64,000 nt of DNA from Trichaptum fuscoviolaceum (lineage: Eukaryota; Basidiomycota; Agaricomycetes; Hymenochaetales; Trichaptaceae), in contig CAJSYZ010000003.1 in assembly GCA_910574455.1 (NCBI GenBank), forward strand, positions 4,463,250 to 4,527,249, given 5' to 3'. Of the stretch, positions 24,571-61,790 are shown one piece after another (position 1 is the first letter of the stretch; each line of letters begins with the position of its first letter). The notes below the pieces were generated by a model, which was not told the origin of the DNA, searched no databases, and saw nothing but the letters and a program-made list of their open reading frames with translations. Position numbers and translations under genes: made by a program.

Positions 24571-24589
24571 ACGCCAAATTTATTGGATC

Positions 24590-25200
24590 ACTGGCATTCA
24601 AGTTGCAGTGATCATGATGTCCGACTCCGACGGCCCGGGAGTCACGGCAGTACTAGTAGTACTACGTGGCAGCCTGAGGTAGCGTTTCCACTCCGAGTCG
24701 TCGGACTTTCAACTAGTTCAAGTTCAAGTTCCGAATTTAGTAGCCTGAGTACCCCATGCCCACAACTTGACGTTGCACCCCAGTGAGCCTGAGCGACGTG
24801 TCGTGCCCGAATCTAGTACTTAGGCTTGTTCTTTAACTTTGCACTTCAACAGCTTGAAGCCCTCTCATCCTGAAGTCCACCTGAATTTCATCCTACTTGT
24901 AGACTGCTGGCACTGGTGGTGAGTGAGCTTTCAGCCTTCTAGATCTACTTCATCCACTGACTGAGATCTTCAAGCTTGTACTTCTACTACTACTAGTAGT
25001 AGCTCTACCGATTAGAACCACTCAGGCTACACTGGCAGCCTGAGCCTCAGGCCGAGCGTGAGCCTGATCCGCTTCAAGTTTGCTACTACTACTACTACTA
25101 CTACTGCTACTCGCTACCGAACTTCCGCGTGAGGTAGTACCACTACTACCACTACCACTACTACTACTAATATTCGGCATCACTACTCACGGCAAGACTC
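24590..25200. repeat. Palindromic-word DNA, block 1
   Basis: Non-coding DNA made of a few short self-complementary words used repeatedly: AGTACTAGTAGTACTACG, TCAAGTTCAAGTTC, GACTCCGACGG / CCGAGTCGTCGG, GCAGCCTGAGCCTCAGGC and a (CTA)n run at 25,083-25,110. The block lies between the truncated exonuclease and the start of gene A. Confidence 0.75.
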
Positions 25201-25223
25201 CAAGTCTCCTCCAGTTTGCAGTT

Positions 25224-27680
25224 ATGCCAGACAATAGGAAGCGTCCGCGCATCCCGAAACTTGAAGGTGAGCCTGAGTTTGAGTCGGACCCCTCGCCGGT
25301 TCTGACAATTATTTCGAAGAATCCGAATCCGAGTCGGAGCGCGTTTCTGTCGAGCGTCGTTCCAGTGGTAATCGGAATGCCCATGAACGTCACTATTCAC
25401 CGCCGTATTCACAGAAACACTCAGGCTGGCACAGGAAGGACAGAAGTAATAAACGGAGGAGGAACGATCATGAGCACAGTCCCACGAGCACTCCGGGGCC
25501 GAGCCGTACTAGTACCAGCGCCAGTGGGCAATACCAAGACAGGACCAGCTCTTCATACCCTGTGGAGGCGTACCGCGACTATAAAGACAGCGTTCGCGAA
25601 GACAAATATACACCTCATATAAATTTGGGAACAGTCACTGGCGCCAGTGGCTTTCGAGGGTGTGACCAGAACTCTGGTTCACCGAGTTCCTATCCCTCCT
25701 CCCGGGAGGTCGCGCAGAACAATCCGACTGCTCCAAGTAGGATCAGTGTTCCACGGACTCTTCGCATTAGCGTCTTTAAGTCGTCAACCCCTTCACCTGC
25801 TCCTCGGTCTGGAGTTAGCAACAGCCCACTTAGTACTCCAAATGACATCTTGTCGGATATGCGTTCTAAAGTGATTACTGCCCAAAACTCTATGAGCAGT
25901 TCGCCGGCAATTGGAGTATCGGATTCTAAAGTTGATAATGTCGATCAAAGCGAAGGTAACGCATTCTTCCTCCCTTTCCTATCATAGTCTGTGTCCAAAG
26001 CTAACCCTTCACTGGCACAGAAAACATCAAATCGGCTCACTTGATAACAAAGAGTCCATCTCATTCGCCAACCCCCTCTGAGCTCGCGCCCTTATACGAT
26101 CCAAATGCAGGAGTCAAGCAGCTGAAGGACTTGACCAAGCAGCTGAAAAAATGGGAGGACTTTCATAAAAAGGATTCCAATGAATTGAGGGCTCGAGTTA
26201 CGGATTTGGAGAAGAGGTTTGCCGTGATGGAAGGAGTCCAGAAGAACGTTGCAGATACTTTAAATGACGTATCAGCGTCAATCGATCTCGTGGAAGACAA
26301 AATGTCTGGGGTAAGTAACATGATCACATTTCTAAAAAGAGTGACATCTAAAAACATACCCTTGTTAGTCACGGCAAGCAGGCGACGCTGTAAGAATGAG
26401 GAAGATTTTAGATAATCTACTGACCTACCTCCGGGAAGGCTCTGCAATTGTCCTTGATTTCACTGGCGAGGACGTAAAGAGAACCCAGCACTTAGCGTCA
26501 TCCCGTCCCGGCGCTCCCAATTACTTTGCCGCCGACTTTTATGCATTGCATGACGTCATGCATGAACACTTTAAACGACACCTTCTTTACCTGCCACCTG
26601 TTCCCCCGACACATCCTGATGCCGGTCGTAAATTATACACTGTGGGAAAAAGACCCACCACATGTCCAATTTATCCGGAATCGTGCAACTCAGCAACGTG
26701 CAAAAAAGTGTTACGACGAATCTCATGAGACCAAAATAACTGCTTTCCGGTTCTTTCTACCATATTTCCAGCTCCATTACAACGCACTTTACGATTTCAT
26801 CGTAGAAATTGACAAACTCCTCCAACAATGGGCAGCTCTTCAACATAATTTCAAGCCCAATGCAGAGGAAAGGCTCTACTTAATGACGGTGGACAACCCA
26901 GGAACTTTCGTAACGCCTGCGGTCGAACTGTTTGGGGGATTGCCTCAGGCACGCCCTCAGCCTGACGTTCACAAGCATCTAGTCTTTAAAGACTCGGAGA
27001 TTGGACGGAGACTGGCGCTCACACTTTGGGACAAGGTCGTCGCACTCCATAACGGTGAAGAAGTGCCGGACCTTGTCAAGTCCGACAACGATCACATCAA
27101 ATTTGTTGAATACATGAAAAGGACCTTGGGGGCCTTGGGGCCTAATCCCTCTTCTCACGCTGATTTTTCGAACAACATCGACTCAAGTCATGTCCGTCGC
27201 TTGGATAAGCTTCAGCGGAACTTGCTACATGGTTTTAAAATCGTCAAGAGGTGGTTGCAAATAGTCCTCAACGAGGATCTTTTCAACGCAGTCATGGGTA
27301 ACTCGCTATTCCATTCAATCCGCCGCGTAATGAACGATATCATACATGCTCGGGAGGAGAGGACTGACGCAGTCCTTGACTCTATTGAGAAGTTCCCGGC
27401 TTACGTGATAAATACCCGCATTACCCGCTATGATGAATTTCAAGACCAACTGATGGCAACGGTGCGCGAGTTACATGACGATATACCACCCGGAGCGAGG
27501 GTTACGGCCGGGGCTTCGACTGCCAGGACGAGTTTATCACCGGAAGAGATCTACAACTCACAGTATCGCGATTATCTAAGCGAAGTGATAAACCAAAAGC
27601 CTGAGGATATTGTCACATCGATGTATCTTCCTAATGGCAAGCAGGAAGAAAGGTCTCCTTCTAGAAACAGTTACTACTAA
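25224..27680 (+). CDS. Orphan gene A, FFL-motif family, one apparent frameshift
   Basis: Family not recognised. Exons 25224-25266, 25320-25955 and 26021-26310 plus a last exon from 26369 to 27680 follow good splice sites; intron 1 has CTGAC near its 3' end. The N-terminus is short and basic. A Ser/Arg/Asp-rich disordered segment follows (ESESESERVSVERRSSGN, NKRRRNDHEH). Then comes a coiled-coil block (VKQLKDLTKQLKKWEDFHKK, SIDLVEDKMSG) and a helical C-terminal domain with AFRFFLPYFQLHYNALYDF at about 26,745-26,801, resembling genes B and C. The reading frame shifts between HPDAG and VVNYTLW near 26,625-26,640 with no usable intron, so the gene is broken or the base call is wrong. It is convergent with the Plavaka gene, 441 nt apart. 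Confidence 0.6.
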
Positions 27681-27829
27681 TAGCTGTTGCGGGCTGGACT
27701 CGGAGGTGAAGCTATGACTTGGAGTTCCCATGTAATCTTTGCGCTATGCTAGTGTCTACAGTTTTTCCTTGTGTCACTTTTTGATTTGCTGATAATAACA
27801 TTACCTTGACCAACCTGAATGAAATACTA

Positions 27830-28000
27830 CTGCCATGATATCATTGCCAGTGTACCACTAGTAGTATACTGTACAACTTGAAAGCAAGCCAAGAACACCA
27901 TAACTTGAAGTTGAAGTTAAAACAGTGTCATGGTACTAGTCTTTAAGAGCCGATGCTGCAATGCCAGTGTAGTACTACGTTAAATAGCGTAGTACTAAGG
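27830..28000. repeat. Palindromic-word DNA, block 2
   Basis: Sits between the convergent 3' ends of gene A and the Plavaka gene. It contains CCACTAGTAGTATACTG, ACAACTTGAAAGC, ATAACTTGAAGTTGAAGTT, AATGCCAGTGTAGTACTACG and GCGTAGTACTAAGG, the same vocabulary as blocks 1 and 3. Confidence 0.65.
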
Positions 28001-28121
28001 TCTGTTTCGTCTAGTACATCCTTTTGTTTCATTGCCATATCCGAGTCCTCACTCGTAAGTTTCAATATAGTACATTCAAGGTTGTGTATGCTAATTGAAA
28101 AGCTTTACTTCAAGTTAGTAA

Positions 28122-31100
28122 TCATTGTCTAGTTTCGTACAATGTTTCGTGCATGTGCATGTCAGCAAATCTGTTAACGTAGAATCTATCGTAAAAGTCC
28201 AGGGATTCCTCAGGTGTCAATGACTTCGGAGGAGATTCGTCACCCTTCGGGACCCCAAGGAGGTGAGCTAAACGAAAGATGTCCCCTATATCTATCACAG
28301 ACAGCTTCGGAGCCTTGCAGTGACGGTGATAGTGATGTCTGCCACTGCCATTCACTCCGGGACAGCGTCCAACACAGGCGGTAGAGCTCTCCAACTCATA
28401 TGCTGGTTCAACTATCCACATTCTTGTTTTCGGGTCGGGCGATTCTCCAACACGCTTGAAAAACTGGACGAGAGCGCATTCCTGACGTTCCACTTTAACG
28501 GTGAATGAGAAAAGAAGTATAACCCTGGCAACTCTCATTCCTGCGAACCCCTGTTTGCGGGAACCACCTCGGACAAGAACTGCATCTCGTCGAGGTTTTC
28601 CGCGCCAAGAGGGACTGGACCTGATCACCTCCCTCATTGCTTGTTCTATAGGGATCGATTCACCACGATACGCAAAGAACGCGGTGGCTGAATGGAAAAT
28701 TGAAAAGTCATTGCTAATATCCAGTTTATAGTGTTCAAATCCGTTGTAGTTTAATTTGGCTTGCCTGCTACTACTAGTAGTAGCAGAACACTTTGAGTTG
28801 GTGTTACAACTTTCGTACTTGTTGAATAAGTGTTTCTTGATGAGTTGTTGGAGTTGTCGAAGTTCTGGATAGCCTTCTATTGCCGCGAGAGCATCGAGCT
28901 GTTTAGGGTACACTTTACTGGACTCTGCAAGGATAACAATAAACAAGTTGGATTTGCAGCACCAAAAGGATGTTTCACTAACGTTTTTTCGAAGCCATTA
29001 ACGTAAAGCTCAAAGGGTCATTCCCGCCACCCAAGCGGAGCTGGCGTTCAGCATTTCCTACGCCATGAACCGCACCACGCTGTGGCTCATCTATTAAACT
29101 TTCGAAATCGTCCAAATCTGCAATTTCGTTGAGCTCTTGAATACCCACAATGGCATCGAAGAAGTCATCTGTATCATCAGCTACACCTACTACTAATACG
29201 TCACGTTGTTGCATCTGCTCTCCCCCACTGGCATCAGGGTCCCTCTCAGCGTCATCCGACTCTGACTCTGACGACATATTCTTGCGCAAAACATCTCGCA
29301 AAGCTCTCCACGAAGCCTCGGCTAACGTATCATCCAGCATTCCACGCCTTTTGAAGTCTGCCCTCGATGCAATAAGTTTACTGAGTCGTTGGTTTGCTGT
29401 GATCATCTGACCCAAGGGATCATTTTTGTTTGAGCGTCGCCATGTTTCCTTGACCGCGTAAATGTGCTTATTCTCTGTGATTGATGAACATAGTCCACTC
29501 GGTGCAGCGAACAGAGGAATCATTGTAGGATAGTGGACCATGGCATGCTGTCGTGGTAGTGAGAAGTTATCCCGGATACCCATAGCTATGAATATTTGCC
29601 GATATTGATGAAAGCAATCCAGAGAGGCTTTGATCTGATCAAGTGTTGAGGCTGTAATCGTGTACCGACGCACAAGATAACAGAAGTCGAGAAATGCACT
29701 CAATGCATGAATTATATCATCCTGCACAATGCCCACAATAGCCGGAAGATACACCTAAGCGGTTTACATCGACTACTATCAGCAAACGACCGCCTCGAAC
29801 AAGAAGGAAAAACCACATACTTTCATAAGTGCCTTTGAATCATTGCCTGTCCATTGCTTGAAGCCTCGGCCTTCGGGGAATCTACGTAGTCCAGGAAAAG
29901 GAGCAGCGACTCTGATTCTACGCGGAGGTCAGCGATAGTATTCATATTATACAAATTGTTTGAGAATGGCACCTTTTATCCACAATATCCAGCTCTGTTG
30001 TGGTCAAGCTCTGGCATATCCACTCGACAAGATGATCCTTGAAAACACCTTTGATGATTTGGTGCAATAGGTCCGGAGAAATGAGATTGCATATATCTGC
30101 GCGCGGAAAGTCATTGGTGAAGGGCTACGGGAAAACATAGTTCTTAGAAGCGCATCCAATGGAGAATTTGGAGCACATACCACGATATCTTGGTGGAACC
30201 CATACTCTTTGCGAATTGTTGCTCTGGTTAAGTTGTTGTCATTTACCTGCTCTATCAATCGTTCGTGTAGCTCTTTTGTTCGAGGATTTGATGCAAACTC
30301 CGGATTATCTAGGTCCTTGTGGGGAGCTGTGCATCTATATAGCCACCGTAAGCCATTTCCTCAGACTCCTATGCGATTTTGGAAAGGATGGTACTTACTT
30401 GCAGCACCATCCAGTGCATATTGCGCATAGACTCACCTGTTCCGGATAATCGGCTATATACGAGCCGAGTCCGAGAACCGACCTACGCAAGTGACCATCA
30501 GGGCACCGGAGAATGGTCTGTTCATTGTTTATGGACATGGCGGTCTTCAGTGAACTCAAGATTCTCGATATAGATGAATGAAAAATTTGATGTCTAAAGC
30601 GACGGAAGTCATCTGACTTTTCGTACTGTCGCTCAGCTGCAAAAAAGCGTCAAAACACAATTGAATGGCTCAGTTTTTGACACACACTCTTTGGTATTGC
30701 TAAAAATGCTACAAGCTGGACTGTATTCAACTTTTGGGACCGCCGGGCCTTGTTTGATACATTTCCTATTGAGAGATAAACGGATAATATTCGTTGTTGC
30801 CAGTTCCAACGGAAACTGTTGTCTTGTCGCTCCCCAAGATCACCGGAACGAACATGGACCCATGGACTGCTTTATCTTTGGCTGAGATTTTGTTCTAAGT
30901 CAAGGATAATCAGTACACTTCCTCCAACTTTGAATGCTGCATTATTCATGACTTACAGCCTGTTCCCAAGCGAAATTTCCGGACATGTAATTTCTGAACA
31001 CTCGTTCTTTGTCATTGATGTCATCAGATTCCTCCTTTGGCTGATATTCACGAAATGGGACATAGTCGAATTCGCCTTCTAAAGCCGTATTATCCACCAA

Positions 31101-32134
31101 ATTTCGGATCACTTCCAAGGGATCCCGATACCATACATCATATTCTTTCCTCTTCCATGACTCGGTGTTCTCGTCTGTCGCTTTTTGGCCATTGTTGTCC
31201 GTGTAGAAGTTACTAAAGGATTTCCAAGGCACATCACCAACTCTCGTAGCGTCAATGACATTGTACAACTTTTGTGCGTCTCCATCGAGTAGCGTACTAG
31301 TGGGATCCAGATCTGAGTCATCGTCGGGCTCAGTTACGTCCAACTCAGAATATCCGCCAGATTTCGCGTTCTTCACAGACTGAATTCGCTGGTAAGCCTT
31401 CATGATTCCGAGAAGCTTTGTTATATTACCAGCAGACATTTGCTCATCGCGATAAAGAAAGTCTGCGAGCTCAAAATCTGCTCGGCACGAATAGGGAGAC
31501 CAGTCATTTGGTGCAGGTTCATTTCGCGGAACAGGTGGTTCTTCGTTTTCTAAGTTGTTTCCTTCCGCATCACACGGGGTGGCTGCACGATGTTTTTCAT
31601 CAGAGTGTTATCAAACCGAGGACAATATACTTGGTGCGCACCATTCATATATCTGTGGTACACCTTTAGGTTACCATCACTCTCCTCATGATCTCCAACG
31701 TCGAAGTCGAAATCTTCAGAGGATGCACTACGGCCACTGTCACTTCCGGTGCCAGAATGGGACAGAGAATCAGGTCTGTCTAGGTCTTGAAGCAGCTCGT
31801 CTCGGCCTATACTGAGCATCGAGATATCCTGTGTAAGCATGGAAATATCGTAATCGTAGGAGTCAGAGCCGCTCTCAAAATGACCCTCTGTTGGAAGTTC
31901 GGACGACCTCGGTAGAGGTTGAGGAGTTGGAGCTCGTGTGGGTCGAATAGGTGAAGAATCATAGTCGTGACCACAGACAGTAGATCTTGCCACGGATGAC
32001 ATCGGATGAGCTGAATATTCATGTCTTGCTCTTCCAGATTGACTCTTGAATGTCCTACTACAGCTGGGCAAGGTGCATCGAATAGTTGGTGGAAAATGAA
32101 AGGGATCGTGCTTTTTCCGTGTCGCTGGCATCAA
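28122..32134 (-). CDS. Plavaka transposase with N-terminal C2H2 zinc finger
   Basis: Transposase of a basidiomycete Plavaka element; predicted to bind element ends and cut DNA in the nucleus. Read on the minus strand, the N-terminus (ATG at 32,134) has a C2H2 finger (CTLPSCSRTFKSQ...HEYSAH, C-x4-C...H-x4-H). Family blocks follow: FADFLYRDEQMSAGN-like sequence near 31,440, NVIDATRVGDVPWKSF, EYDVWYRDPLEVIRNLV, EFDYVPFREYQP, GSYIADYPEQ near 30,450, PFTNDFPRADICNLISPDLL near 30,110, YLPAIVGIVQDDI, then FSLPRQHAMVHY and GLCSSITENKHIYAVKETWR near 29,460-29,580. The C-terminal exon (28946-28122) carries FRLAHLLGVP and ends at TGA. Several introns interrupt 29.75-31 kb and were not all modelled. No definite lesion was seen, so it may be functional. 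A palindromic word sits inside the last exon. Confidence 0.8.
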
Positions 32135-32144
32135 CTTGAATGTA

Positions 32145-32260
32145 GCCTCAATAGTAGTACTACACGTTGACGACAGTGCCAGTGGCAGCCTGAGTGAGCC
32201 TGAGCCTGAGTGAACCTGAGTTAAAATTAGTCATAGCAGTAGTAGTGGGCGTAAATTTTC
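32145..32260. repeat. Palindromic-word DNA, block 3
   Basis: The 224-nt gap between the divergent starts of the Plavaka gene and gene D consists largely of AGTAGTACTACACG, GACAGTGCCAGTGGCAGCC, then TGAGTGAGCCTGAGCCTGAG and GCAGTAGTAGTGGG. It is probably a shared promoter as well as possible transposase-binding DNA. Confidence 0.6.
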
Positions 32261-32357
32261 AACTTGTCTACTAAGATAGACGCCCCCACCTCCCTGATCT
32301 TGAACTTGCACCTTCGATCCATCTTATCCTCATACAAGACTCAAAACACTGCACAAA

Positions 32358-35300
32358 ATGTCAACTCGAAGACAGACAAGGGCCAAGAACAGCGAACAGC
32401 ACCCCGGAGCAGTCGTTGACCAACTCAGAACAAGACGAACACAGGAGGAGATATTGCGGGAGAAGGAAGAAAAAGACAAAAGGAAAGTACAGCAGGCAGC
32501 GAGGCGGGATGAGGCATTGAAGGAGAAGGAGGAGAAGGAAAAACAGAAGGAAGAACGGGCAGCTTTCCGCAGAGCTGCGGCCCAGCAAGTCGCGGTTGCG
32601 AAAGAGAGGAAAAAACTCGCTGCGGAGCAGAAACGGGCAGCAAAAGAACAAGAGGCAGCTGACAAGGTACGAAAGAAGGTGACTGCAGCAGAAAACCAAG
32701 AAGCAGCGATGCTAGAGACCGTAGAAATTGAAAACAATTTGTCGAAGGCTCTTGAGACACGCACCCAGATGGGCTCAACAGTGCCTAAACTCGCTGGAAA
32801 ACGTGGACGTAGGAAGCCGAAGGGCGAAGCTAGTAGTAAGTTTCAACCTCAGATCAGTAATTACATAGCTTTGAACTGGCGTAAGCAGGCTCGAAGAACG
32901 ATGTTAAAGACGTGTCGGGTTGTGAAGTTGAATACAACGAAGACTTAGACATTGGTGAGTTATACTGCCTATACATTTTCAGATGTTTTCGAAGCTTGGA
33001 GGTTGACTACTTTGACTCACAATATGAAGCGGCGAGTACGGATGCGTCAAACAGAAAGCCTGCAAAAAAGGCTAGGAAAGAAGATCCCAAAGGTGAACTT
33101 CCATTTCGCACCCGTGTGCAGACCGCAAAGACGTCGAGATCTGCCGCCACTCCAAGCAACATTTTCTTTCACGCACCTGCCGGACAGAACGAGAGCCTTT
33201 CTGGTGAAGAAACGGATATAATAGACTCGCCCGCTACGTCAAAGCGGGACGACAAGACAAAGCGACCTGCCAGGGCGCTTCGCAACACAGATGAATCCAC
33301 TTTCATTGGTGAAGAGGATGGAGGACTTGAGGTGGCAGGGATAGACTCGAGAGGGATCAATTTGTGAGTTTAAATTTGAAATCTTGCAATGCGTACGGGA
33401 TCAATTTCTGGAATGCACGATGTAATGGTAAGTGTGAAGCTTGATTTAGACTCAGCTAAAGCTCATAGTATGATCCAACTAGATTACTAATGTTCATGCT
33501 GAGGAAGCGGATCATGACGCTCCGACAACGGGATCAAATTTCCTTCTACCTACAACGATGACACTCACGTCTTTGTTACCATATTATGAGCTTCGCTGAC
33601 GCCAAGCTACACTAGACACAGCATCTCATTGCAAGACAATGAAAACTTAAGTCCTTGGGAGGATGAAGGAGAAACAATAACCCTCGCAAGCTATCATGGT
33701 GTAAAGAATAGCTCAATCAGCGTGCAAAAGACAGCACATTTTGTCGATTCGGACACAAATATTGTGAGTTGACGGAACATTAGAATGGCAGATGCAGTCT
33801 GAATACCTTGCTTGTAGGGCGAAAGCGATCCGAGGAGACTGACAAGGCCGGCTCAAGCTAGTGTGAGTGCGACTTATTACTGTTCGATTCACGTCAGTTA
33901 CCCCATGACCGTTTGATCATATCCCTTCGTTATTATTTTTCTGCCAACTGTCGTGTAATGAACAGGATGGAGGTAGCAGCAACTTGAACTCAAAGAAAAG
34001 GAAGTTGCTGCGCGACACTCTCTCCGGGTCGCAGGTTTCAACGGTAAGCGACGTCATATCATTCCTACCTTTTCCAATCTACTAACCAATCCCTTTCCGT
34101 ACTTGAGGATAAGAACAACGAGACAAAACCAGGTGGACAGGTGAGTGCCAGACAGTGAAGCACAGTGATCTTCATGCTACATCCTTCCTTCCTTGCTTGC
34201 TGAATTGATCTTTGGACAGGATGCAAACAAGAGAACTGCCAATTCGCAGGCACCGGTAAGTCCCATCTTAATCCAGTTTCTCTCGTTTCCCCCTGATTTA
34301 TGGTTGTAAGGTGCATTCACTAGCCTTGGAACCCCGTATACAGGTATGTGTGGGCGTCGATGCACCGTAGGCTCACTTCCGCTGTAGCAACTGTTCGTTC
34401 CCTTCCTCACATCGGGTCGATCACTAATTTGTGCCTATAAATAGGACATCATAGTCACAAAAAACAGAAAGAGAAAGTCGCCACCGGACATCGACTCCCA
34501 GGTTGATGTGGTAATTCTTCCACCTTCACGTGTAATGGATTCCTTCATGTTTATGTTTACTTACTTTACACTATCTCAATAGGCTAGTAAGAGTGTCAAG
34601 GTCAAGATGTCATTGTTGACTGGCATGGACACACAGGTCGGTGCCACAGTAAGTGTCAATTCTTTGGTAGCCGGCATTTTAAGTTCGTTTCTGACCAGGC
34701 GGAAAGGACTTGAGTAAGAAGGGGAAACCCTCTGACATTCCTTATCGGCCTGAGGCCGACACAACGGTAATTGCTTCCTTTCGAGCTGCTCACTTGCCAT
34801 GGATAACAGCTTTCTGACGTGTTGCAGTCTGAGATTGGATCCGCTACCTCTCATCGCAAGAGGCAGTCGCTGGTGGCTGATAATGAAGCAAGTGTGGGTC
34901 GATTGATACACTCTAAATATGAGCATTCACTCACTATTCTTATTAGACCGGTGGTCGAAAGATGCCGTTAGCACCTCGAACACAGTCGCTTGCAATGACG
35001 AGAGTATCCTGCACTCCCGGACCCGAAGTGTTAGTGACTGGGGCTTATCCTGGTCATCACAAAGTCTCTCGGACTACTAGCTCAGTGTGTCGAATCAAAT
35101 TTATTTCTATGACATATTTTTGCTGATTCACTTATATGCAGACATCAGTGGGGCTGGAGGACAAGGGTCGAAATGAAGGAAAGGAAGGATCTCGCGTGCC
35201 AGGCAGAAAAAGGGCGACGAACCAGTGTCTCCCTCCCGGTACTCAGGCCGGTTGGACTCATATTTTATTACCTTCACTATTTCGCGCAGTGGGAAAGTCC

Positions 35301-37156: not shown

Positions 37157-37400
37157 AGCAGAAAGTAGTTTCCCTGATGTAGCCTTACATCAGGGAAACT
37201 ACTTTTTGCTTAAGGCGACTGACGCGTCCTGACGCTGCCTTAAATGGACTGAAGGGTTGCTATGCCTGTCTGAAATCTACTGATATGTTGCTATGCCTGT
37301 CTGAAATCAACTGATGGCCTGAACACACTGAAATAAGCCAATTTTCAGGACACACTCAGTACGTCAGTACATCAGGAGGTCAGTCAAGCATAAGTAAAGA
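37157..37400. repeat. Dispersed repeat, copy 2, with a near-perfect hairpin
   Basis: Positions 37,162-37,181 and 37,186-37,205 form a perfect 20-bp inverted repeat around the 4-nt loop GCCT, extendable to 25 bp with one mismatch. The right arm continues into the blocks shared with the copy at 23,511 (GGCGACTGACGCGTCCTGAC, CTGAAGGGT, CTGAAATAAG, TTTCAGGACA). CTGAAATC-containing units repeat at 37,255-37,320. It is probably a foldback or non-autonomous DNA element. Confidence 0.7.
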
Positions 37401-51470: not shown

Positions 51471-51477
51471 TAGCAAC

Positions 51478-51850
51478 AACTTGAAGTTGAAGTCGACAAC
51501 TGAGTGCCAGCCTGCCAGCCTTAGTAGTGAGTGCCACAACTTCAAGTTGAACTTGAAGTCACCGTGTCAGTGACCGGCGTGCCACTGGCACTGGCAGTGG
51601 CAGTGAGCCTGAGTGACTCCGACTCAGACATCACTGGCAGAAGAATTTGCCGTCCATGTCCTCTTCATCTTGCTCCCCGGAACATTGAAGGGATGAAGTA
51701 GTGATGTTGAAGGCAACTTGAGCCAGAGGAACTTTAACACGGTGTATGTCCCCGAAATGTTAAAGTAGAAGCACAACACAAACAAGCCTTCGGGTACTAC
51801 TAGTACGAGTACTAGTAGGCTAGTAGATACTCCTGGCAGCCTGGGGATGC
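51478..51850. repeat. Palindromic-word DNA, block 4
   Basis: Two clusters. At 51,478-51,640: CAACTTGAAGTTGAAGT, CAACTTCAAGTTGAACTTG, GCCACTGGCACTGGCAGTGG, GTGACTCCGACTCAG. At 51,795-51,850: GTACTACTAGTACGAGTACT and GGCTAGTAGATACTCC. They lie downstream of gene C's stop. Confidence 0.7.
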
Positions 51851-52076
51851 GCTGCATCGTATGAGATGTGGTGATCAGTATTTACAAAATATCTTCAAGT
51901 TGAAGGTCATATCATCAAACAATCAAGCAAGACATAGGCGTTTTATTCAAGAAAAAGACGACACATCATTGTTTACTATTATCGGAAAGACAAAGTCGAA
52001 ACATCATTGTTTATCAGGAAGACAGATAGACTCAACGAAGTTTATACCGTGACCATATACTCCGGGTAGTAGTATA

Positions 52077-55000
52077 CTAGGACAAGGGCGTCAAAGATTT
52101 GAGTCGAGATACGCCTTCGCCGGTAATCCGAAACTCAAATGGCTCTTTGTAAAGAGGATTGGAAGGATTCACAAATCCTTCCTTGGAACTAGGAGGCTTC
52201 CGTGTTTGCTCACGCACTTCCTTTGCCCAGTCCATGCGCAGAGCCAAATAAGACTGAGGTGCCCGACCATAAGGGCCATGGTTCCCCACTATCTTGCATA
52301 TCCTTTTAAGCACGTCCTGCTGTTCATAGGTAAAGAGTGGTTCCCCCGCTGTCAGGTGCAGTACGGATGGTGCGTTTTCTATGAATTTGGAGAGAGATTC
52401 GTCGTCACCATAATAATGTCGGTCGTGGATAAGTTTATTCAAATGTTGCCTGAGTGGAGTCTCGTTCATCACCTCAAAAACGACATGTTCAGAAGACGTA
52501 ATCATCTGCATCGCGTTGGAAAGGATAACAGCTTTCTCCCTGTGCGTATTTCGCCGCTTCTCCAGATGCAGGATCTTCGATAATTTTTTTCGGTCTTTGT
52601 CATTTTCCGGCCACTTTCGCACTGGCACCGGGACTTCCGTGAGATTCGCCTGCTTGACAACTTCCGCTAGTGTGTTCAAGGATAATTGGTCGAAAGAAGC
52701 TGAGACTTCCTCATAACTGCGCTGTATATCAGCTGGGAGAGCTTTTGGAGGAAAACCTTTGGCCGACGCATGAGGTATGTCCTCAGAGCCATAGTATTCG
52801 ATGTCGCCCTCTTCGGCCATCTTTGCAAAGAATTCCTCGAAATAGAACTTAGGCAGGTCCTTCAGATCGAGGACACCCTCTTCTGATGGATCAAGATTTG
52901 GGAACGGTTTGCACGTAAAGTCATCTATGCTGGCATCCCATGTGGACTCCTGCTTGTCGAGTGTGGTGGCTGGCTGTTGTGAATCCAACTTCTTCAGCTT
53001 GCGATTGAGGATGACATACAACCTTCGATGGAATTCGAAGATAAGATAGAAGCGCACAAGAAAGAAACGGAACTTTTCGATGGATTTTGCGTCAGGCGAC
53101 GGCTGCCAGGAGTTTGTGAAGGGGTATTTGGATTTAAGCTCTGCTCTCGCGCCCTCTACCAAGCTGTGCAGCTTCTTTTCGGTTTCCCTCAGCGTCTTCA
53201 CGGCCCGGCCCCTCTTTTCCTCACTACACTTTGGGTCCTTTGTCGTCTCCTCCACCTCCTCTGCTTTGTTTTTCGCCTTAACCGCCTCCTTGTATGTCGT
53301 ATCCTCCTTGCGGAAGTCTGCTAACTTGTCTTCAATCCCTGCTAACCACTCTTCGTAGCGTGCTTTCTCTGAGGATATGAGGCTTTGAGGTAAAGCGGTG
53401 AGCAGGTCATCAAACAGATGCCTTGCAATGGGAACCTTTCCGTTCCGGCACATGGTTGGTTGGGCAGTGAACTCAGCGTAAAGCTCGTTTACACCTCTGA
53501 TGAGCCCCGCTGTCTTGACACCGCCATCACCAGTAATGTCAAAAGGGGCAACCGATTCGATCTTGAATTTGTTTGGGAAAACAATGGCAAAAGCCATATA
53601 AAGAATGTTCCTGGCGTCCTCGAAGACGTGTCGTAGTTTAATACTACAAGCTGCCGCTTCGCTCTATGTGAGAACTCATGAGTTTAATTTGTTTTGCAAT
53701 AGCTTTCAAGATGACTTACCGATTCAGCTGCTACGACAATGATTTGAAGCTCGCGTATCATGACAGCGAACGATGCTATAGTCCGCGTCAAAAGGTCGTC
53801 TTTGGAGCGGTCCGCCTTCCGTTCAGCATCCAATGTCTGGTCCGCCTTCCGTTCAGCATCCAATGTCTCCATACGAGCCAGCTTTTCGTTCATTTGATGC
53901 ACCTTGTCGGTGGTGCTTCGAATCATATCAAATTGACTGTCAAGCCTTTTGCTAACATTAGCTGCCATGACGGAGTGTAGCGCATGGATGCCCTCCTCAG
54001 CTGCAGCCCTCGCAAGCATCGGGTAATTCAGGGTTGCCTGGTCCTTTATATGTTGTATCTCGTTGGAGAGAGATTCGACTTTCTCCTCCAAGCTCTTTAT
54101 TGTCTCCGAGTAAACCGTACTGAGATCCGTGTTCTCCGATTTGGCCGCCTTTTTTTTCGTGGCTTTCAGATCTTCCTTTTTTTTGTCAAGATCTTGATAT
54201 CCCTCAACATTCCGCATCGCCCGTTCCAGCCGTTCATCCACTTTCTTTTTTTCATCAGTATTCGCCGCCCGAGCTGCCGCTCCATGCTTGAGTTTTGTTA
54301 TCACCTGGTTGAGAACTTTGGCAGTCTCGACCAGCTTTCCTCCAATGTCCGTCCATTCCTTGCCCGCTTTGTCCAAGTCGCCCCCTATCCCATTGAGCAT
54401 GGTGACTGACAAGTCGCTAGTTGGGTATAGGAAAGAGATAAGAAGCAATCTACACAGACTGGCAATGTCACTCACAGGTTCGTTTTCAAGTCTTCGACAC
54501 TGTTTGACGGCTTGGAGTCCACGTCCGACCCAGGTTTTGCCACCCCACTGCCAGTGGCACCGGCACTGGCGGCCTTGCTGTGTCGGGATCCCCCAGGACC
54601 CCAACATGTCTAAGGCAAACCCGAACAGAACCCGGTATACTGAAACCCGAAACCGCGACCTTGGCTAGATCCCGAAAGGATCCCCCGCTCTCTGATCCCA
54701 GAAGAACCTCTGCTTCGCCATGCATTCTCCTGCTAAGAGTTCCGCCCCGCTACGACCTCCTCGCCCCTGCTTGTCCTCGCCCACGTCTCCTCGTCAGCCC
54801 CCCGCCTCGTCCCTGTGTCTCGATCCATCCCTAGCCCGCCTCGTCGTTCCCCCGACTCTAGGATGATCCCCCGCTCGCTCCCCGCTCCCGTCATGCTCTG
54901 TTCCCCGCTCCAGCGAACCCCGTACCTCGCCATAGTCCCGAAGTCACTCACCATAGCCACAGCCATAGCCATAGCCTGCCACAGCCATAGCCATAGCCAT

Positions 55001-57272
55001 AGCTATCCCAGACCTCGTAGGTTCTCGACTATGCCCGGATACCAGATCCCGGCCTCGCGTCCACAGTCATGAAGTGCAGTTAGGAGATTGATCCACTGCG
55101 TCCAAAGCCGACCTCTGTCTGGCCTTGAGTAAGCCAACACGACAGCGGTCAAGGATTGCTATCCCGCAATCCTGCCCGGTCACGAACCCTGCCCTGCGCT
55201 CGTCCTGCCACGGTGCCCTAGCTAACCCCTTCGACATCCTGTGCCTCTCGACCTGCCCTTGTTCGTCCACAGCCTGCCCCGCCAGGAATCCCGCCTCGCC
55301 GCGAACGCTGTCAAGCGTCCCCTCTGACAATCCCGCAACCCACGCTCGTTCACGGTTGGAGTCCTGTCAAGACTCCCCCACTCGTCCCGGTTGGAGTCCC
55401 GCCAAACTCCCCCCGCTCGTTTCCCGACTAGAGTCTCGCCAGACTCCCCCGCTCATTCCCGGTAGAAACCCCGCTCGCTTCCCGGTTGGAATCCCGCTCC
55501 TTTCCCCCGCACGATCCCAGTCGAAAACCCGCTCGTTTCCCGCCTCGCGTCCCGTCTCGAATCCCTGCGCAAATCCCCCGCAGGATTCCCGCCTTCGATC
55601 CCGCCGCAATTCCCATCGCAACCCCAGCTAAGTTCCCGCTCTGATTCCCGAAAGATTCCCGCTACGATTCCCGGTCGAACCCTGTCTCGATTCCCAGTCG
55701 AACCCTGTCTCGATTCCCGGTCGAAACCCAAACTCGACTCCCAGTCGAAACCCGAACTTGATTCCCGGTCGAAACCCGAACCAGATTCCCTGCATGATCC
55801 CGTCGCGAATCGCGCGAGTTTCCCGTCGTCCAAGGGAAACCCCTTAGCTTCCCCGCTCCTCGATGCTAACCTCGTCTTGAGATAGCCCCAGGTGATTGGC
55901 CTGGCCACGCACGTGCCAGCCAACTAGTCTCGTTAGTAGCGTCCTGTCCCGGCCCGCAGACCACATTCCCGCCACCCCGTGTGCGGGATTGATCTCATTG
56001 TCCGCAAGGACTCGAACCCCGTCCTTAGTCGCCCTGCCCCGCGCGCGCCTCGCGATTAGGCTTCGTTACGACATCGAAGCACCGACTTCTTCGAAGTTGG
56101 TCCCTGTCGATCTCCCGCGACCCTGATCCACGCCAGAAGTTGCCTGCAACTTATCCCGAGACAATGTATGCATTACATCCGCCCCCCACGCTCGTTACCC
56201 CGCGGCCTGTGCGCCAGCTTGATACCTCGCGCACAATTACATTCCTTTAGTTCTCTTTGTTTCACTTGACCATGCTTCACGCTCGTTCCCTTAGATCTTG
56301 CTCAGATGTTCCCCGCACCGAATCCCGAATCCCGGATTCACGTCACTGTATGCGCGGCCTTCGCCCGCAAGATTGTGTAACTAGTTAGTTGCGCGTTTGT
56401 GCATGCCCGTTCCCTGTAGATTCTGCCCAGTAGATAAATACCTGTCGCCACCGTAAGGAGCACTCACTTTTGTCCTCTTGTCGAGTGCTTCCTTAGGTGT
56501 GTTTCTGTCTTGTCTCTAGTGTAGTTTTACAATGCTGACTTGTCGAGTGCTTCCTTAGGGAACCCCCTCCTGATAACAGAAGTGTTGCCTCGAGATCCCG
56601 GTTATCCTGAGCTCTCTGCTCCTGTCCTGAGCACGCCTGCTCTCTGGCTCTCTTGTCTCTGTCTTGTCCCGGATCCCGCTCTGCGAATCCCGCTCTGAGT
56701 CCTGCCCAGAATCCCGCTCTGAGATTCCCGCCAAAGTCCCAAACGATTCCCGCGCTGCGATCCCTGCACGAATCCAGATTCCCGCGCGAATCCAGATTCC
56801 CGCCAGAATCCCGCTTGGCATTTCCCCGCGTCTCGACTCTGTCTTCCCGCGCCTCGACTCTGCCTTCCCCGCCTCGACTCTGACTCCGTCCCGTCCTCGC
56901 CTTGAGCCCCCTTGCGTCTCGCCCCCATAGCCCCGCTCCCCGCGCGACCCGTTGGCGTTGTAGCGTCCTTAACGGTTCCCCTTCGCCTTCTCCGCTGCCG
57001 CGCGCTCTCCCAGGCCTTGCCCCGGAAGCCGCTAACGCGCCCCGGCCCCCAGGTTCCCCCCAGGTCGTAACACGCTGACAGTAGAATGGAATGTCATCAA
57101 GATGCAATTAAGCTCAGGCTGGCAACACTACTCACAATTCCAAATTGGATGTGTCTGGTTCCGCCTCAGTGGCAGACGTCAAATTGCCACTGCCAACTCC
57201 TAGTCCGACCTCAAACTCCGATTGTGACCTCAACCCGGGCCCTGCACTTGCAAGAGACTCCGAGTCGGACAT
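52077..57272 (-). CDS. Orphan gene C, FFL-motif family (840 aa), LTR inserted at intron 1 end
   Basis: Family not recognised. Exons on the minus strand: 57272-57136, then (across a solo LTR) 54577-54476, 54416-53720 and 53663-52077. They sum to 2523 nt, 840 aa plus stop, with all phases matching. The N-terminus is Ser/Asp/Glu-rich (SDSESLASAGPG, then GSGVAKPGSDVDSK) and is encoded partly by palindromic words. Residues about 85-310 are a coiled coil (DEKKKVDERLERAMRNVE, KSLEEKVESLSNEIQHIK) with a 10-residue duplication. The C-terminal 530 residues are a helical domain with KFRFFLVRFYLIFEFHRRLY at about 53,000-53,060, resembling A and B. No membrane segment or enzyme motif was found. Apart from the LTR it carries no lesion, so it was recently coding and may still be expressed if intron 1 is spliced. 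Confidence 0.7.
53810..53869 (-). repeat. 30-bp exact tandem duplication in gene C
   Basis: Two adjacent copies of a 30-nt unit (53,810-53,839 and 53,840-53,869), differing only at the last base, encode TLDAERKADQ followed by TLDAERKADR in the coiled coil. The frame is kept. Confidence 0.9.
54581..57072 (+). mobile_element. Solo LTR, 2492 bp, chromovirus-related
   Basis: Starts TGTCGGGATCCC and ends GGTCGTAACA, the same ends as the chromovirus LTR, in plus orientation. The flanks TGCTG (54,576-54,580) and CGCTG (57,073-57,077) are a 5-bp target duplication with one mismatch. It has no gag or pol. Inside are a CCATAG hexanucleotide run (about 54,950-55,010), irregular repeats of CGATTCCCGGTCGAAACCC type (about 55,660-55,800), and an ATAAATA box at about 56,433. 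The leader module with two CTTGTCGAGTGCTTCCTTAG copies follows at about 56,475-56,560. Its right 900 bp matches the inverted sequence at 63,019-64,000. Open frames in it are by-products of its G+C-rich repeats. Confidence 0.8.
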
Positions 57273-59260
57273 GGAGACGCCGGGCCCATTCACTGGCAGG
57301 CTGTCAAGAGAATGTCCTGGTCACATACTTTGAAGGCTGGCAACATGAATGACACTTACTTGATTGCTGATTTGCCACTGTCATCTCGCTGTACCAACTG
57401 AATGAGAAATTCAATCCAATTCACCATGTCTGACCGCGTCTTTATAAGCCCGGGCCACGGATGGGCTCCATTTTTGCCGAAAGAAACTATTCCTGTTTGG
57501 ACTTTTTGTGAAAGAATTGAAATTACTACTAATACTAGTTTTTGAGACATGTACTACATACCAGCTAGTCTGGCTTCCTCTGGATCCAGCAGCAGTCTGA
57601 CTTCCATTGGCCCGGGAGGCTCAGGCTGAGTGCCAGTGGCTTGCTGGCCCGGGATGCCAGTGTTAACAGGTAGCAGTGGCATGTTAGCGTGAGGGACAAC
57701 ACTGGCAGACATTCTGAAGGGATAGTCATTGAGTTGCTGGCTTCAAGATGATGTGGGGGGCATCATGATGGGGTCCGCTGCCAGTGGCAACTAAAAGCTA
57801 TTCACCGTCGGAACGTGAACTTGAAGAAGTTGATGGAAGTCGGATACTACCGCTGCCAGCAGGCCACACCGTGACTCAGGCTGACGGAGTGCCGTGAAGA
57901 GTAGTACTATATTTAAATTTAAGTACTCAGGCTAGTACTACTATGCCAGTGATACTACTACTACTAGTAGTAGGACTTCCCAGCCTCACTGGCACTGGCA
58001 GTGCCACAGCATGAGTGCACCCGCCGCGAGTAGTACTACTACCGTAACTACTAGTACTACTACTACTACTACTAGTACTTACTAGTCGAATTTGAAGTTG
58101 ATGATCTCAGCAACTTGACAGCTCGGCCGCCGCAGTTCGCTTCGGAGTCCGAGTCCTCGCCGGATAGTACTATAGTAGTACTATACTTGTTTGTGTTTCA
58201 CGGCATGATGATGCGGAGGCACCGTGATCATCATTATGATGGTACTAGAGTAGTGACGCAGCCTGCGGCTCAGGCTGAGTCGGAAGCCACCATACTCAGG
58301 CTATGCTTCCCGTACTAAGGATTTAGAATGGCTTTTTCGTCCTACAAGTAGTATGTAGTACTAGTACTAAACGGCACGGCTCGGAGCCAAACTCTCCGTC
58401 TTGCCCGGGCCCTAAATTTCCAGGATCTAGCAGAGGGGAAGGGTCTGCCAGATGGTCCGTGTCTAGGACAGTCGTCCTAAATGCCTGCCTTGCTTACCGT
58501 ACTAGTAGTAGTATCAGGTAAGATATCATAAGTACACCCTGATACCTTACCTTCAAGTTCAAAGGTAAGTTATACCGCGGGACTCCATGGACCGGCAGAA
58601 CTTCTGCTCAAGGCCGGCGGTGGACGGGTGGCTTCAACCTCCCTAAATGCTTGCCAGCCTGAGTGCCAAGCGGGGTCTTATGGGTTTCAATTTCGGGTGT
58701 CCTAAATCCTTCATCCAGTGGCGCCACTGGCAGTGATACCGTGACTCAGGCTCAGCCTGAGCCTGAGGCTGCCACTGCAGTGCCAGTGGCAGTGAGGCTA
58801 CTAGTTCTGGGAGGAAGGGCACTGCGTTCCGGAATTGCGTGATAACGCTCAGGGAAATCTGCCTCCCGTGCGAATGTCTTCAAGTTGACAAATGGGGGAC
58901 TCGGACTCGGAGTAAGGGACTTGCCGGCGAAGCTCGGCCCATTTTCTACTAGTACTGTAGTATTAGTAATAACTTGAAGTTGCCCCTCAGGCTCACTGGC
59001 ACTCACTGCCAGTGGCTCACTCAGGCTACTACTAGTACTAGTAATAGCCTACTACTACTAGTACTACTCAGGCTGCCGGTGGCATGCCACGGTGGCGACA
59101 CTTGACCTTCATTCCAACTTCACTCACCGTTTGAATAACCCTTGCCATTACTTTCCTCTCAGGCATACTACTACTACTAGTAGTATTCCTAGTAGTAGTA
59201 CTCACTGCACTGCCAACTTGATCTTGAAGTAGCTCAGGCTCTTCGTTCAGTCACTATCAA
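57140..59260. repeat. Palindromic-word DNA, block 5 (largest)
   Basis: About 2 kb mostly without genes, between the starts of gene C and gene B. It is densest at 57.53-58.35 and 58.65-59.23 kb. Words include ACTACTACTAGTAGTAGGAC, CACTGGCACTGGCAGTGCC, ACTGCAGTGCCAGTGGCAGT, GACTCGGACTCGGAGT and CTCAGCCTGAGCCTGAGG. The left edge (57,136-57,272) is also coding exon 1 of gene C. No promoter element could be separated from the repeats. Confidence 0.8.
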
Positions 59261-59269
59261 ATCTCCAAA

Positions 59270-61097
59270 ATGTCAAGTTCTGATCTCGGGAATACTCCAA
59301 GCTCTTGCTTGGACACAGACGAGGACGAGGACGGTTCAGAATCCAGCTTTGGTCTCAACACTCACAGCTCAAAGTCCGCGATCATCGAAGACGAGAGCGA
59401 ATACGAAGTGTATACAAATCCTGTAGAGGTTAAGTTCGGTAGGACCACATATTATCTATATTTCAGTGTGTGGTTTGGCTTATCTTCAATGACTTGTCAG
59501 AGGACCTACCCTTTGGTTATCGCTCGGGAGCATATATCGATAGCACGGTGGTCCAGTCAATCACCAAAAGCTTAGAGTCCAAGCTAGAGCATGCAAATCG
59601 CTTCGGGTTTTCGTCGAACGATTTCAAGGAAACACTTGTTCTGGCTGATCGGCTGGGGAGGTACTTTGATACGTCAAATCAGTATATCAGTAACCGGGTT
59701 AGGGAAGCACAGGCTCTGCAGAGGAAGACGGCTGTGATGCTAGACCAGTTTCGGATCAGTACATACCAGTACACGGACATGATCTTCAAGCTAGGTGAAG
59801 AACTAGCTATCCTGATGCGTTATACGGTAAGCTGCAAATTAAATCAAAAGCTTGAATGCACGTCTCTAACCGCTTGTTCTTATGGTAATGCGCTATAGCC
59901 CGAGGAGCCACTTGAGCTGCTTATCCGCAAGCGTGTGGAGGAATCAAGACTTGCTGTCGCCACGGCGTTCATATCTGTTCTTCCCGGCTTTTTCCCGTCA
60001 GGGAAACTCATCAATGTTTTCACTGGGGACGTCATCTGGGATAATTTCTTGTCTTGCTTAGTCGCCCGATATCATTCACACCATGCAATCGTGCGTTGGC
60101 AACGTAAATTTGAGGATGAGGAGGCCGGCAATCGATTGATACAGACAAAATCTGTCTTTTCTGCCATAAGGATCGACATCAAAGGCACAAAGCTCGAGGA
60201 AAATGTTCGTCGTGAACTCTCTGCTCAATTGAAGCACTTTACGCCAGTCGTGGGCGTGAATCTTAAAGGCTCTACAAGCAGGCCCCGAAACCCAAGGCTT
60301 GCGCTCAAGTTCTTTCTCCCCCTACTTATTTGGTCATATAACGAGTGCAAGGATTGGATCGTCTTCCTAGACAAATGCCGTGTGCGGAACAATTGCCAAA
60401 GTCGCCCGTTGGTCAACTCTCAGAAGCAGAAGTCAATTGTTCTGCGACTCAGGCGACTCCGACTGTCTTTCAATCCGGAACAGCACGAGAGGCTCGGCGT
60501 CGATGGAAACGTGAACTTGAACGTGCCGGTGGAGAAGCTGCTCTAGCTGACTTTCATCGACTCATTCAGAAGTCAATGGATATTCTTGGCGTCGACTCGG
60601 CTGATGGTGGAACGTCCTCATTGGAGAATAATCGACAAATCCAGCGCGAATACGGAAATTATTCGGTTGTTCTGCGCAGGTTCAACTGGATCAGGAAATG
60701 TTTAATCATCCTCTGTGATGATTCGCTTCTGGATCTGTTGCTCATGAATGATGGTGCAATGCAGCGCTTCTCCAGGGAGATGGACTTTGCTAGGCTGGGC
60801 ATTATCGAAGTGACTCGAGCCATTAGGCAATTTGACGATGCTGATCGCAAAGATATAGACAAGGAAAGACTCGACAGGGCCGCCGAATTTCTCCACGAAG
60901 ATATGGAACACATCGATCATGCCCTTATTCCGGCAGAGCAAATTTTTGACTCTTTACTCCTGAAGACAGTCGACGATTTACTTCGTAATTATGGTCCATT
61001 TTATTTAACAGATTATGGAATCCTATTTGCTCTTCTCGACAAATTGGATCCCATCACGGACACCGACTCGGATGTCAATATGAGCTCGGCGATGTAA
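59270..61097 (+). CDS. Orphan gene B, FFL-motif family (557 aa), intact
   Basis: Family not recognised. Exons 59270-59428, 59467-59826, 59899-60379 and 60424-61097 total 1674 nt and stay in phase. Introns are 38, 72 and 44 nt; the first and third are very short but keep GT..AG ends. The N-terminus is acidic and Ser-rich (SSSDLGNTPSS, DTDEDEDGSESS). A helical region follows (SITKSLESKLEHANRF, VREAQALQRKTAVMLDQF). Then LALKFFLPLLIWSYNECKDW at about 60,299-60,358 aligns with AFRFFLPYFQLHYNALYDF of gene A. The C-terminal 200 residues are helical, containing WIRKCLIILCDDSLLDLLL. There are no known motifs. It is convergent with the second Plavaka copy, 771 nt apart, the same layout as gene A with copy 1. 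Confidence 0.65.
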
Positions 61098-61224
61098 CTG
61101 GCGGTTGCATATTGGACCATTCCCCGACACGAAGTGTTCTAGGGTTCACCAGCGCGCGATTCAAGTTTAAGTTGTGGCCGTGTTAAATTTTTATTTCGTT
61201 TTACTATGTTTATGACAAAAGTCA

Positions 61225-61790
61225 AGGACTCGGATTGTACTAGTACTACTCATTCTATGCCAGTGCTTACTCCCTTTTCAAGTTTAACTTAAAGCTCCTC
61301 TCGCACTATGCTGCACTATTGGTAGTTAGTACTAGTAGCAACTATGTGACATCGTTTTCTTGATTACTACTATATACTGCAAAAAAATTATTTATTTATT
61401 CATAGCATATGCTTCAAGTTGATAGTACTACCGTGACTAGTACTACTAGTAGTCTGTGTTCAACTTCAACTTCAACTTCAAGATGGTTAAATTAGAACTT
61501 GAAGTAGTACTAGTAGTAGTAGCAGCCTGAGGCAGGTTATTGGTTCATTTCCAGTTGTTGGCAAGTTCCATGTTATTGTACACTTTTTACTTGAAGTTTT
61601 CTATGTTCATACTAGTAGTACTAGTACCAGTAGTAGTAGTACTCAGCCTGAGGCTGCCAGTGCACTGCAGCAGTGGGAAATTTTGACCACTGCCACTGAC
61701 AGTGGCATCTGACATGATCCAACTTGAACTTGAAGTCTAAGATGCACCGACTAGTAACACTACAATTCTAGTATAGCTAGTACCATAATC
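61225..61790. repeat. Palindromic-word DNA, block 6
   Basis: Lies between the convergent 3' ends of gene B and Plavaka copy 2, as block 2 does for gene A and copy 1. It contains TGACTAGTACTACTAGTAGT, CAACTTCAACTTCAACTTC, TACTAGTAGTACTAGTACC, CTGCCAGTGCACTGCAGCAG and CCAACTTGAACTTGAAGTC. Confidence 0.75.

Follow-up and report, generated by a model that had tools for sequence, protein, structure and literature searches.

Palindromic words in the genome of Trichaptum fuscoviolaceum as probable excision footprints of PlavakaB-like transposons

INTRODUCTION

One of the 12 contigs of the 59.09-Mb genome of the fungus Trichaptum fuscoviolaceum contains a stretch of 64,000 nucleotides (C3:4463250-4527249, the whole of which is called the window here) whose intergenic DNA is built from a small set of recurring palindromic words. 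The closest named relatives of one host protein encoded there, at 51-56% identity, are from Phellinidium, Coniferiporia, Phellopilus, Fomitiporia, Schizopora and Sanghuangporus, all of them Hymenochaetales. The question that this locus raises is what process writes such a vocabulary. We conclude, with a probability of roughly 0.84, that the words are nested excision footprints of PlavakaB-like cut-and-paste transposons, which have accumulated throughout the genome. This reading is built on direct observations (a 2-bp target duplication, element ends of the form C...G, a common formula, nesting, recent gains of 6 bp, and clustering at insertion points), to which a proposed hairpin chemistry is added. 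Excision scars are usually studied singly in laboratory assays; here, a nested history of past jumps may be legible in the genome itself.

RESULTS

The words follow a single formula

The palindromic words had been described before from the letters of the window alone (the sequence-only reading), and they were found where that reading had placed them. Counted as 8-mers on both strands of the window, TACTAGTA occurred 48 times (24 sites, the word being self-complementary) versus 1.2 expected, AACTTGAA 42 times versus 4.3, CACTGGCA 32 times versus 2.2, AGCCTGAG 31 times versus 2.2, and GACTCGGA 17 times versus 3.0, which ranks them 2nd, 3rd, 6th, 7th and 22nd by count among the enriched 8-mers. 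A plain count of reverse palindromes bore out the description only for the longer lengths: palindromes of 8 bp (251 versus 250 by chance) and 10 bp (74 versus 62.5) were at or slightly above chance, and those of 12 bp (23 versus 15.6) and 14 bp (11 versus 3.9) were enriched. The short ones stay near chance because most of the words are quasi-palindromes.

Rather than a set of fixed motifs, as had been supposed, the core words obey one formula with a free dinucleotide, XY-C-Y'X'-G-XY, in which Y'X' is the reverse complement of XY. With XY = TA, AA, CA, AG and GA, this gives exactly TACTAGTA, AACTTGAA, CACTGGCA, AGCCTGAG and GACTCGGA, in that order. Between 22 and 64 kb of the window there were 154 formula words versus 14.7 for control formulas, and the reverse-complement middle was the most frequent of all 16 possible middles for 10 of the 16 dinucleotides. 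The same number (10 of 16, one of them tied) was obtained in a genome sample of 20 random 10-kb stretches; where 19 random stretches are mentioned below, L011 has been dropped for the Plavaka element that it carries. When inserts of 0-6 bases between repeated dinucleotides were searched symbolically (length 6 with fixed outer letters), C-Y'X'-G came out clearly first (316 versus 74.2, z 27.9), and the best insert of any other length reached a z of 6.8. Among the 16 single-base choices, C..G was the highest in the random set with 209 words, followed by 103, 100 and 93, the remainder lying between 41 and 74. Pooling all single bases left a weak excess only (1569 versus 1315 and 1245), a masking effect that the base-by-base test resolved. 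Footprint forms based on longer targets (3-6 bp) produced no signal that approached that of the 2-bp form.

The units can be removed from the sequence iteratively. In this way 170 units were taken out of the window between 22 and 64 kb, compared to 15.0 +/- 4.3 (maximum 30) for 300 control grammars, and 171 units out of the 19 random stretches, compared to 53.8 +/- 7.8 (maximum 73). The removal takes two to three rounds, thus the words are nested. In the word block at 57524-59280, stepwise removal of 24 formula units shortened the first cluster (57524-58369) from 846 to 702 bp. Nested forms are also common in the genome, repeated elements included: a GA-class 14-mer occurred 249 times versus 3 for the reversed pattern, and a CA-class 15-mer 150 times versus 0 for its control.

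The formula fits the ends and target duplications of Plavaka transposons

According to the portion of PMC12730594 at hand, PlavakaB elements have termini CATCA..TGATG and a target site duplication (TSD) of 2-3 bp, and Plavaka is grouped with EnSpm and Transib. Two element types in our material have these termini, a 2-bp TSD and a transposase matching PF18759: an older element at window positions 23510-37179 and a family that we call E2, recognized in random stretch L011, which together with L031 and L030 covers C3:856792-873791. The transposase match (E=6.3e-18 in E2) covers the first third of the profile only and lies in a single open frame in each element. A degenerate 22-bp pattern of the Plavaka end, with C...G termini, matched the genome 539 times, and its reversed version 0 times. 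Our set of 25 end pairs consists of four E2 copies, the older element of the window, and 20 further pairs chosen as neighboring opposite ends from the first 100 of the 539 listed ends. These copies have ends CATCAGGG..CCCTGATG, and identical 2-bp flanks were present in 24 of the 25 pairs, that is, in all four E2 copies, the window element, and 19 of the 20 further pairs, none of which had a 3-bp duplication. The 24 TSDs comprised eight different dinucleotides (TA 6, AT 5, TG 4, CA 3, AA 2, TT 2, CG 1 and GA 1). The C and G of the formula thus correspond to the first and last base of Plavaka elements, and its outer XY to the target duplication.

Single units have been gained recently

The E2 family numbers 62 copies at two short test sites, and intact copies measure about 25.3 kb as judged from their end positions. 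A search with a 4.5-kb query gave 34 scored matches, of which 32, E2 itself included, were full length at 99-100% identity. When near-identical E2 copies were compared, nine length changes fell inside words, namely six of 3- or 6-bp units and three of 1 bp. Outside the words, and alignment edges apart, all length changes were of 1 bp except two (2 and 3 bp). All four 6-bp differences take the form L-XY-R versus L-XY-C-Y'X'-G-XY-R: CAAG/CAACTTGAAG, CTTG/CTTCAAGTTG, CCAG/CCACTGGCAG and GTAG/GTACTAGTAG.

At three sites (S1-S3), all genome copies matching the exact flanks were scored by length, allowing 0-12 (S1) or 0-6 (S2 and S3) extra bases. The 6-bp unit was present in 55 of 61 copies and absent from 6 at S1, and present in 3 of 62 copies at S2 and in 1 of 62 at S3; the lengths seen were solely 0 or +6. 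The letters of the unit were read in one copy at S2 (L002), in the single one at S3 (L046), and in part of the S1 copies. The simplest reading takes the minority states at S2 and S3 as derived; on this reading, units have been gained singly and on a recent time scale, in copies that are approximately 99% identical.

One further length difference was seen: at E2 16039-16436 there is an insertion of about 397 bp with inverted ends (CTCAATTTTG..CAAAATTGAG), which is absent from the window copy (58146-58148).

The words are genome-wide and densest beside Plavaka insertion points

Equal frequency of the words in ordinary intergenic DNA of this genome had been named by the sequence-only reading as counting against it. 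It withstands this check by half: in random DNA the density is lower, but the words do occur there. The 20 random stretches contained 209 formula words versus 57.2, and 162 versus 53.6 remained without the Plavaka-bearing stretch. In these stretches TACTAGTA was found 26 times and the same word backwards 3 times, and for CACTGGCA the numbers were 33 and 2. The phenomenon is therefore genome-wide and strongly concentrated locally. Extrapolated from the 19 random stretches, the excess of about 0.57 formula words per kb would amount to roughly 3 x 10^4 in 59 Mb.

The tie to Plavaka, a CACTA-related type of element, was borne out. The bulk of the window's words lies in the spacers of these elements, words also occur outside them, and they are densest beside insertion points. 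Outside 11 Plavaka ends, the excess was 9.8 per kb within 100 bp, 3.4 at 100-300 bp, 1.6 at 300-1000 bp and 0.4 at 1000-2700 bp. These were 11 of 14 ends, since window 37188, window 37179 and L034 2976 have another element end directly outside and were excluded. In the random stretches, the excess was 0.20 per kb in open frames of at least 150 codons and 0.81 elsewhere. Dense beside ends and sparse in open frames, the footprints thus mark places that are repeatedly hit or tolerant of insertion. The long terminal repeat (LTR) elements of the window hold 1 formula word in 10.2 kb versus 4.5 for controls, which is a weak control as these elements may be younger.

Some words do lie in open frames (39 versus 24.4 in frames of at least 150 codons in the 19 random stretches), and as a 6-bp scar preserves the reading frame, some of these may add two residues to proteins.

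The word blocks of the window lie mostly in two Plavaka-type transposons

Two Plavaka-type transposons occupy most of the region from 23.5 to 63.0 kb. The features of this region, with formula words versus expectation where counted, are as follows.

23510-37179, minus strand: older PlavakaB-type element of 13.67 kb, ends CATCAGGG...CCCTGATG, TSD TA on both sides (23508-23509 and 37180-37181); 45 formula words versus 4.5
30945-31607, minus strand: open frame containing a portion of the older element's Plavaka transposase (match to PF18759 of Pfam at E=2e-23, covering positions 3-99 of the 325 in the profile)
37188-38306, minus strand: right end of an E2-type element, terminus CATCAGGGAAACTACTTTTTGC as in the right ends of four other E2 copies, flanking TA at 37186-37187
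38312-45015, minus strand: Gypsy-type LTR retrotransposon within the E2-type element, 818-bp LTRs 99.6% identical, TSD GCTCG; 1 formula word
45016-54580, minus strand: continuation of the E2-type element; 28 formula words versus 2.8
54581-57072, plus strand: LTR-like sequence (TGTCGGG...GTCGTAACA) within the E2-type element; 0 formula words
57073-63018, minus strand: further part of the E2-type element, where words are densest; 76 formula words versus 2.7, a density of 12.8 per kb
63019-64000, minus strand: second LTR-like copy in opposite orientation, extending to 65490 beyond the window; left bound of the surviving E2-type element

The word blocks are:

24589-25515: two clusters in the older element, 24589-24793 and 24984-25515, of which the latter overlaps open frames 25068-25622 and 25283-25987
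27845-28116: in the older element
32132-32246: in the older element
47547-47617: in the E2-type element
51477-51902: in the E2-type element
57524-59280: clusters 57524-58369 and 58499-59280
61065-61735: in the E2-type element, including the polymorphic site S1 (61401-61431)

The seven blocks as delimited by the sequence-only reading add up to 4,067 bp, or 6.4% of the window, yet hold 106 of its 165 formula words. In the 30.3 kb of Plavaka DNA there were 150 formula words, compared to 7.2 +/- 2.5 (maximum 18) in 200 first-order Markov sequences, and 114 of the 150 are contained in the nine clusters. The blocks are situated mostly in spacers, away from the element ends; 27 of the 150 words are inside open frames of at least 150 codons, which span 14.3 of the 30.3 kb (47%). 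The conserved block at 1-22 kb, thought to be devoid of the words, is near background and not at zero (11 formula words versus 5.6). Two exonuclease copies had been said to neighbor the words. The duplicated gene at 28.1-29.7 and 61.9-62.8 kb gave no Pfam match; a weak exonuclease match, under the curated cut-off, lies at 48.0-48.8 kb.

The older element has the terminal inverted repeat CATCAGGG and several stretches that are about 81% identical to E2. The E2-type element of the window consists of three minus-strand pieces, broken by the Gypsy element and the first LTR-like sequence and ended by the second LTR-like copy. Its positions 46700-52700 match 24 other places at 99-100%, and 58146-63018 is 98.9% identical to E2 11185-16039. 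Among the scanned open frames of the E2 family, only the Plavaka frame exceeded the Pfam cut-off; matches below it were a 3'-5' exonuclease (window 48006-48752), HisKA (45213-45761) and DUF6674 (53687-54664). Two Plavaka ends of the window stand back to back, with eight bases (TAGCCTTA) between them at 37180-37187 and one TA per end. The 2.5-kb inverted repeat at 54.6-57.1 and 63.0-65.5 kb was considered as a pair of long terminal inverted repeats of a word-bearing element. This was rejected in favor of an LTR in two orientations, because its boundaries are TG..CA and one copy lies inside E2 where other E2 copies lack it. The left LTR-like copy has a near TSD (TGCTG/CGCTG) and the right one has none.

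DISCUSSION

A proposed hairpin route from excision to the formula

How could excision of a Plavaka element produce this formula? Insertion duplicates the target dinucleotide, giving XY-CATCAGGG...CCCTGATG-XY. At excision, the transposase would nick one base inside each element end, so that the terminal C is left on the flank, and the freed 3' end would be joined to the complementary strand precisely at the border of the element, forming a hairpin L-X-Y-C-Y'-X'-L' with the C unpaired. A host nuclease might then cut each hairpin two bases away from this C, on its far side. This would leave a 3' overhang XYCY'X' on one strand and Y'X'CXY on the other, and the two could anneal via their last two bases, after which fill-in and ligation would yield L-XY-C-Y'X'-G-XY-R, a net gain of 6 bp. 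Later insertions in or beside old footprints would nest the units, giving strings like CTACTACTAGTAGTAG, GACTCCGAGTCGGA and CACTGCCAGTGGCAGTG. Spacers between the genes of an element would gather most footprints, as insertion is presumably little harmful there and the scars would be copied along with the element. In the words themselves, duplicated target bases surround a palindromic (P-nucleotide) insertion, as hairpin footprints do. Hairpin repair had been named by the sequence-only reading as an alternative, and it comes close to the explanation that the evidence favors.

A further step is tentative, and we regard it as possible though doubtful: each excision may prepare the target of a later insertion, Plavaka preferring to land in and beside its own footprints, so that scars become self-reinforcing hot spots and intergenic DNA fills with a nested palindromic language. 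The uniformity of the join may likewise imply a dedicated step, similar to V(D)J recombination, in which hairpins are opened and overhangs annealed. The hot-spot part is suggested by an excess that falls from 9.8 per kb in the nearest 100 bp outside an end to 0.4 beyond 1 kb.

Observations that do not fit

Several observations weigh against the excision reading. One is the dinucleotide spectrum. Divided by XY, the footprint excess is 0.32 for AA/TT, 0.18 for CA/TG, 0.17 for GA/TC, 0.14 each for TA and AG/CT, 0.03 for AC/GT and 0.02 for AT. AT accounts for 5 of the 24 TSDs but for 2% of the footprint excess, and AG/CT together with GA/TC for 1 of 24 but for 31%, so the two spectra fail to match. 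Possible reasons are a loss of readily excising elements from the surviving set, another mode of repair at AT sites, or a contribution from other families. Moreover, among the 25 end pairs and the loci at hand, no site was found both filled and scarred, one of the 25 pairs lacks a matching TSD, and the change at S1 can be read as a gain or as a loss. CG and GC show no enrichment of the formula in the window or in the random set; GG/CC lacks it in the random set, and AT and GT lack it in the window. Among the commonest enriched 8-mers, TACTACTA (1st) and TAGTACTA (4th) do not follow the formula, though nesting produces them in part. After removal of the formula units, the window between 22 and 64 kb keeps 64 C..C and 50 G..G words, above the background of 8-19 in the five other classes shown. 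Finally, two +3 changes lie in TA tracts and are possibly due to slippage. XY = TA is also the largest class of the residual C..C and G..G words (24 and 13). With a self-complementary XY, overhangs able to pair over their full length would yield +3 units (TACTA/TAGTA), and slippage is an equal candidate for these.

Two candidates were set aside. Treating TAGTACTA and CACTGCCA as separate words was one, nesting accounting for them in part, with C..C and G..G forms still above background once the formula units are removed. The other concerned filled and empty versions of one site, of which the loci at hand yielded none; an E2 copy on contig C11 was tried as such a pair, but the right flank of the inserted E2 is other Plavaka DNA, which leaves no clean empty site. 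This copy sits at the edge of one of seven copies, identical over 175 bp, of a sequence beside a Plavaka-type end (L034 2801-2975 and six other places), and its right flank differs.

Other explanations of the words

The explanation that survives best beside excision of PlavakaB, albeit an unlikely one, attributes the footprints to another family with C...G ends and 2-bp duplications, small and non-autonomous or extinct, rather than to the PlavakaB elements read here. It would account for a footprint spectrum unlike that of the 24 extant Plavaka TSDs, and the seven 175-bp copies with a Plavaka-type end illustrate that small elements may do much of the jumping. Yet the ends and 2-bp TSDs of PlavakaB fit the formula exactly, the words cluster beside these very elements, and copies sharing about 99% identity are still acquiring units.

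CACTA (En/Spm) elements have subterminal repeats, and the words had been proposed to be an extreme form of such transposase-binding arrays. That they are selected binding sites for a transposase or regulator we consider highly improbable. The words are tied to CACTA-related elements, and, as judged by eye, a homologous spacer in three elements has the same vocabulary in changed order (block 32132-32246 of the window, E2 7897-8258 with 15 formula words, and L005 1477-1956 with 15). However, the formula has a free dinucleotide and no fixed motif, units of exactly 6 bp are gained, each formed from the dinucleotide at its site, and the words are almost missing from the termini, the outer 500 bp of four ends holding 0-1 formula words each. 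A different array sits there: TTCAG/CTGAA/TCAGT/ACTGA motifs number 12-18 per outer 450 bp of these ends, whereas the body of the older element has 1.7 in the same length. These are likely the true subterminal repeats and the better candidate for transposase binding. In the window, such arrays are found at 23510-23959, 36730-37179 and 37188-37637.

Just as hard to credit is an abortive attack, in which target DNA is cut and hairpinned by the transposase, no stable insertion follows, and a unit remains after repair. The scars, as extrapolated, are numerous relative to the present copies (539 ends), which such attacks could explain, but a duplicated XY marks an insertion that was completed, and the attack would, as far as we can infer, be no established reaction.

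Replication slippage or fold-back template switching, making cryptically simple DNA from local seeds, is the least credible: TA-type tracts, (ACT)n(AGT)n and the +3 changes do look slippage-like, and in one case (TACTAG) the 6-bp difference equally repeats its neighbor in tandem, but slippage does not predict that for most XY an invariant C and G enclose the inverted dinucleotide, that the scored sites change by a constant 6 bp, or that words cluster at Plavaka insertion points.

Significance and comparison with known systems

If the words are excision footprints of Plavaka, the formula predicts, at the sequence level, the cut made by Plavaka, a relative of CACTA, Transib and RAG1 elements that has been little studied, and the repair of the site by the host. 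It would also explain a seemingly functional intergenic "vocabulary" that motif finders could call regulatory elements, and the idea can be tested by counting one formula in any fungus with Plavaka elements.

Like CACTA (En/Spm) elements, the Plavaka elements studied here have subterminal arrays, of the TTCAG type, and the palindromic words differ from those arrays. The elements resemble PlavakaB of the CMCT clade in their CATCA..TGATG termini, 2-bp TSD and Plavaka transposase domain; the portion of PMC12730594 at hand describes no excision footprints, whereas we find a 25-kb family and a stereotyped scar. In the open-access literature searched, which most subscription papers lie outside and which was in part available as excerpts, neither Plavaka footprints nor a genome-wide build-up of one footprint form has been described. 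A deletion at a Plavaka element in Marasmius oreades was not taken for excision by its authors, according to the excerpt at hand (PMC9674265). Scars of this kind have been known; what is new, within the searched literature, is their stereotypy, their formula, their density and the link to Plavaka.

The closest known scars are those of Ac/Ds (hAT). In the accessible part of PMC5873905, Ac/Ds footprints in yeast and plants are palindromes that arise from hairpins, with P-nucleotides, and are often joined by microhomology. Ac/Ds thus shares the hairpin intermediate, the palindromic P-nucleotides around a central base and the microhomology joining with what we propose for Plavaka. Ac/Ds footprints are varied, with 28 kinds from 128 colonies (PMC5873905), whereas here one form dominates, the central base is a constant C/G, which fits the element end, and the scars build a genome-wide vocabulary. 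The chemistry proposed for Plavaka, a nick followed by a hairpin on the flank, is that of RAG and related recombinases, including Transib, as outlined in the consulted section of PMC11844651; the sections consulted gave no chemistry for Plavaka itself. Plavaka and Transib are placed together, and their C(2)C and H(3-4)H motifs recur in RAG1 (PMC12730594, same portion); what would set Plavaka apart from Transib and RAG is a stagger of one base into the element end.

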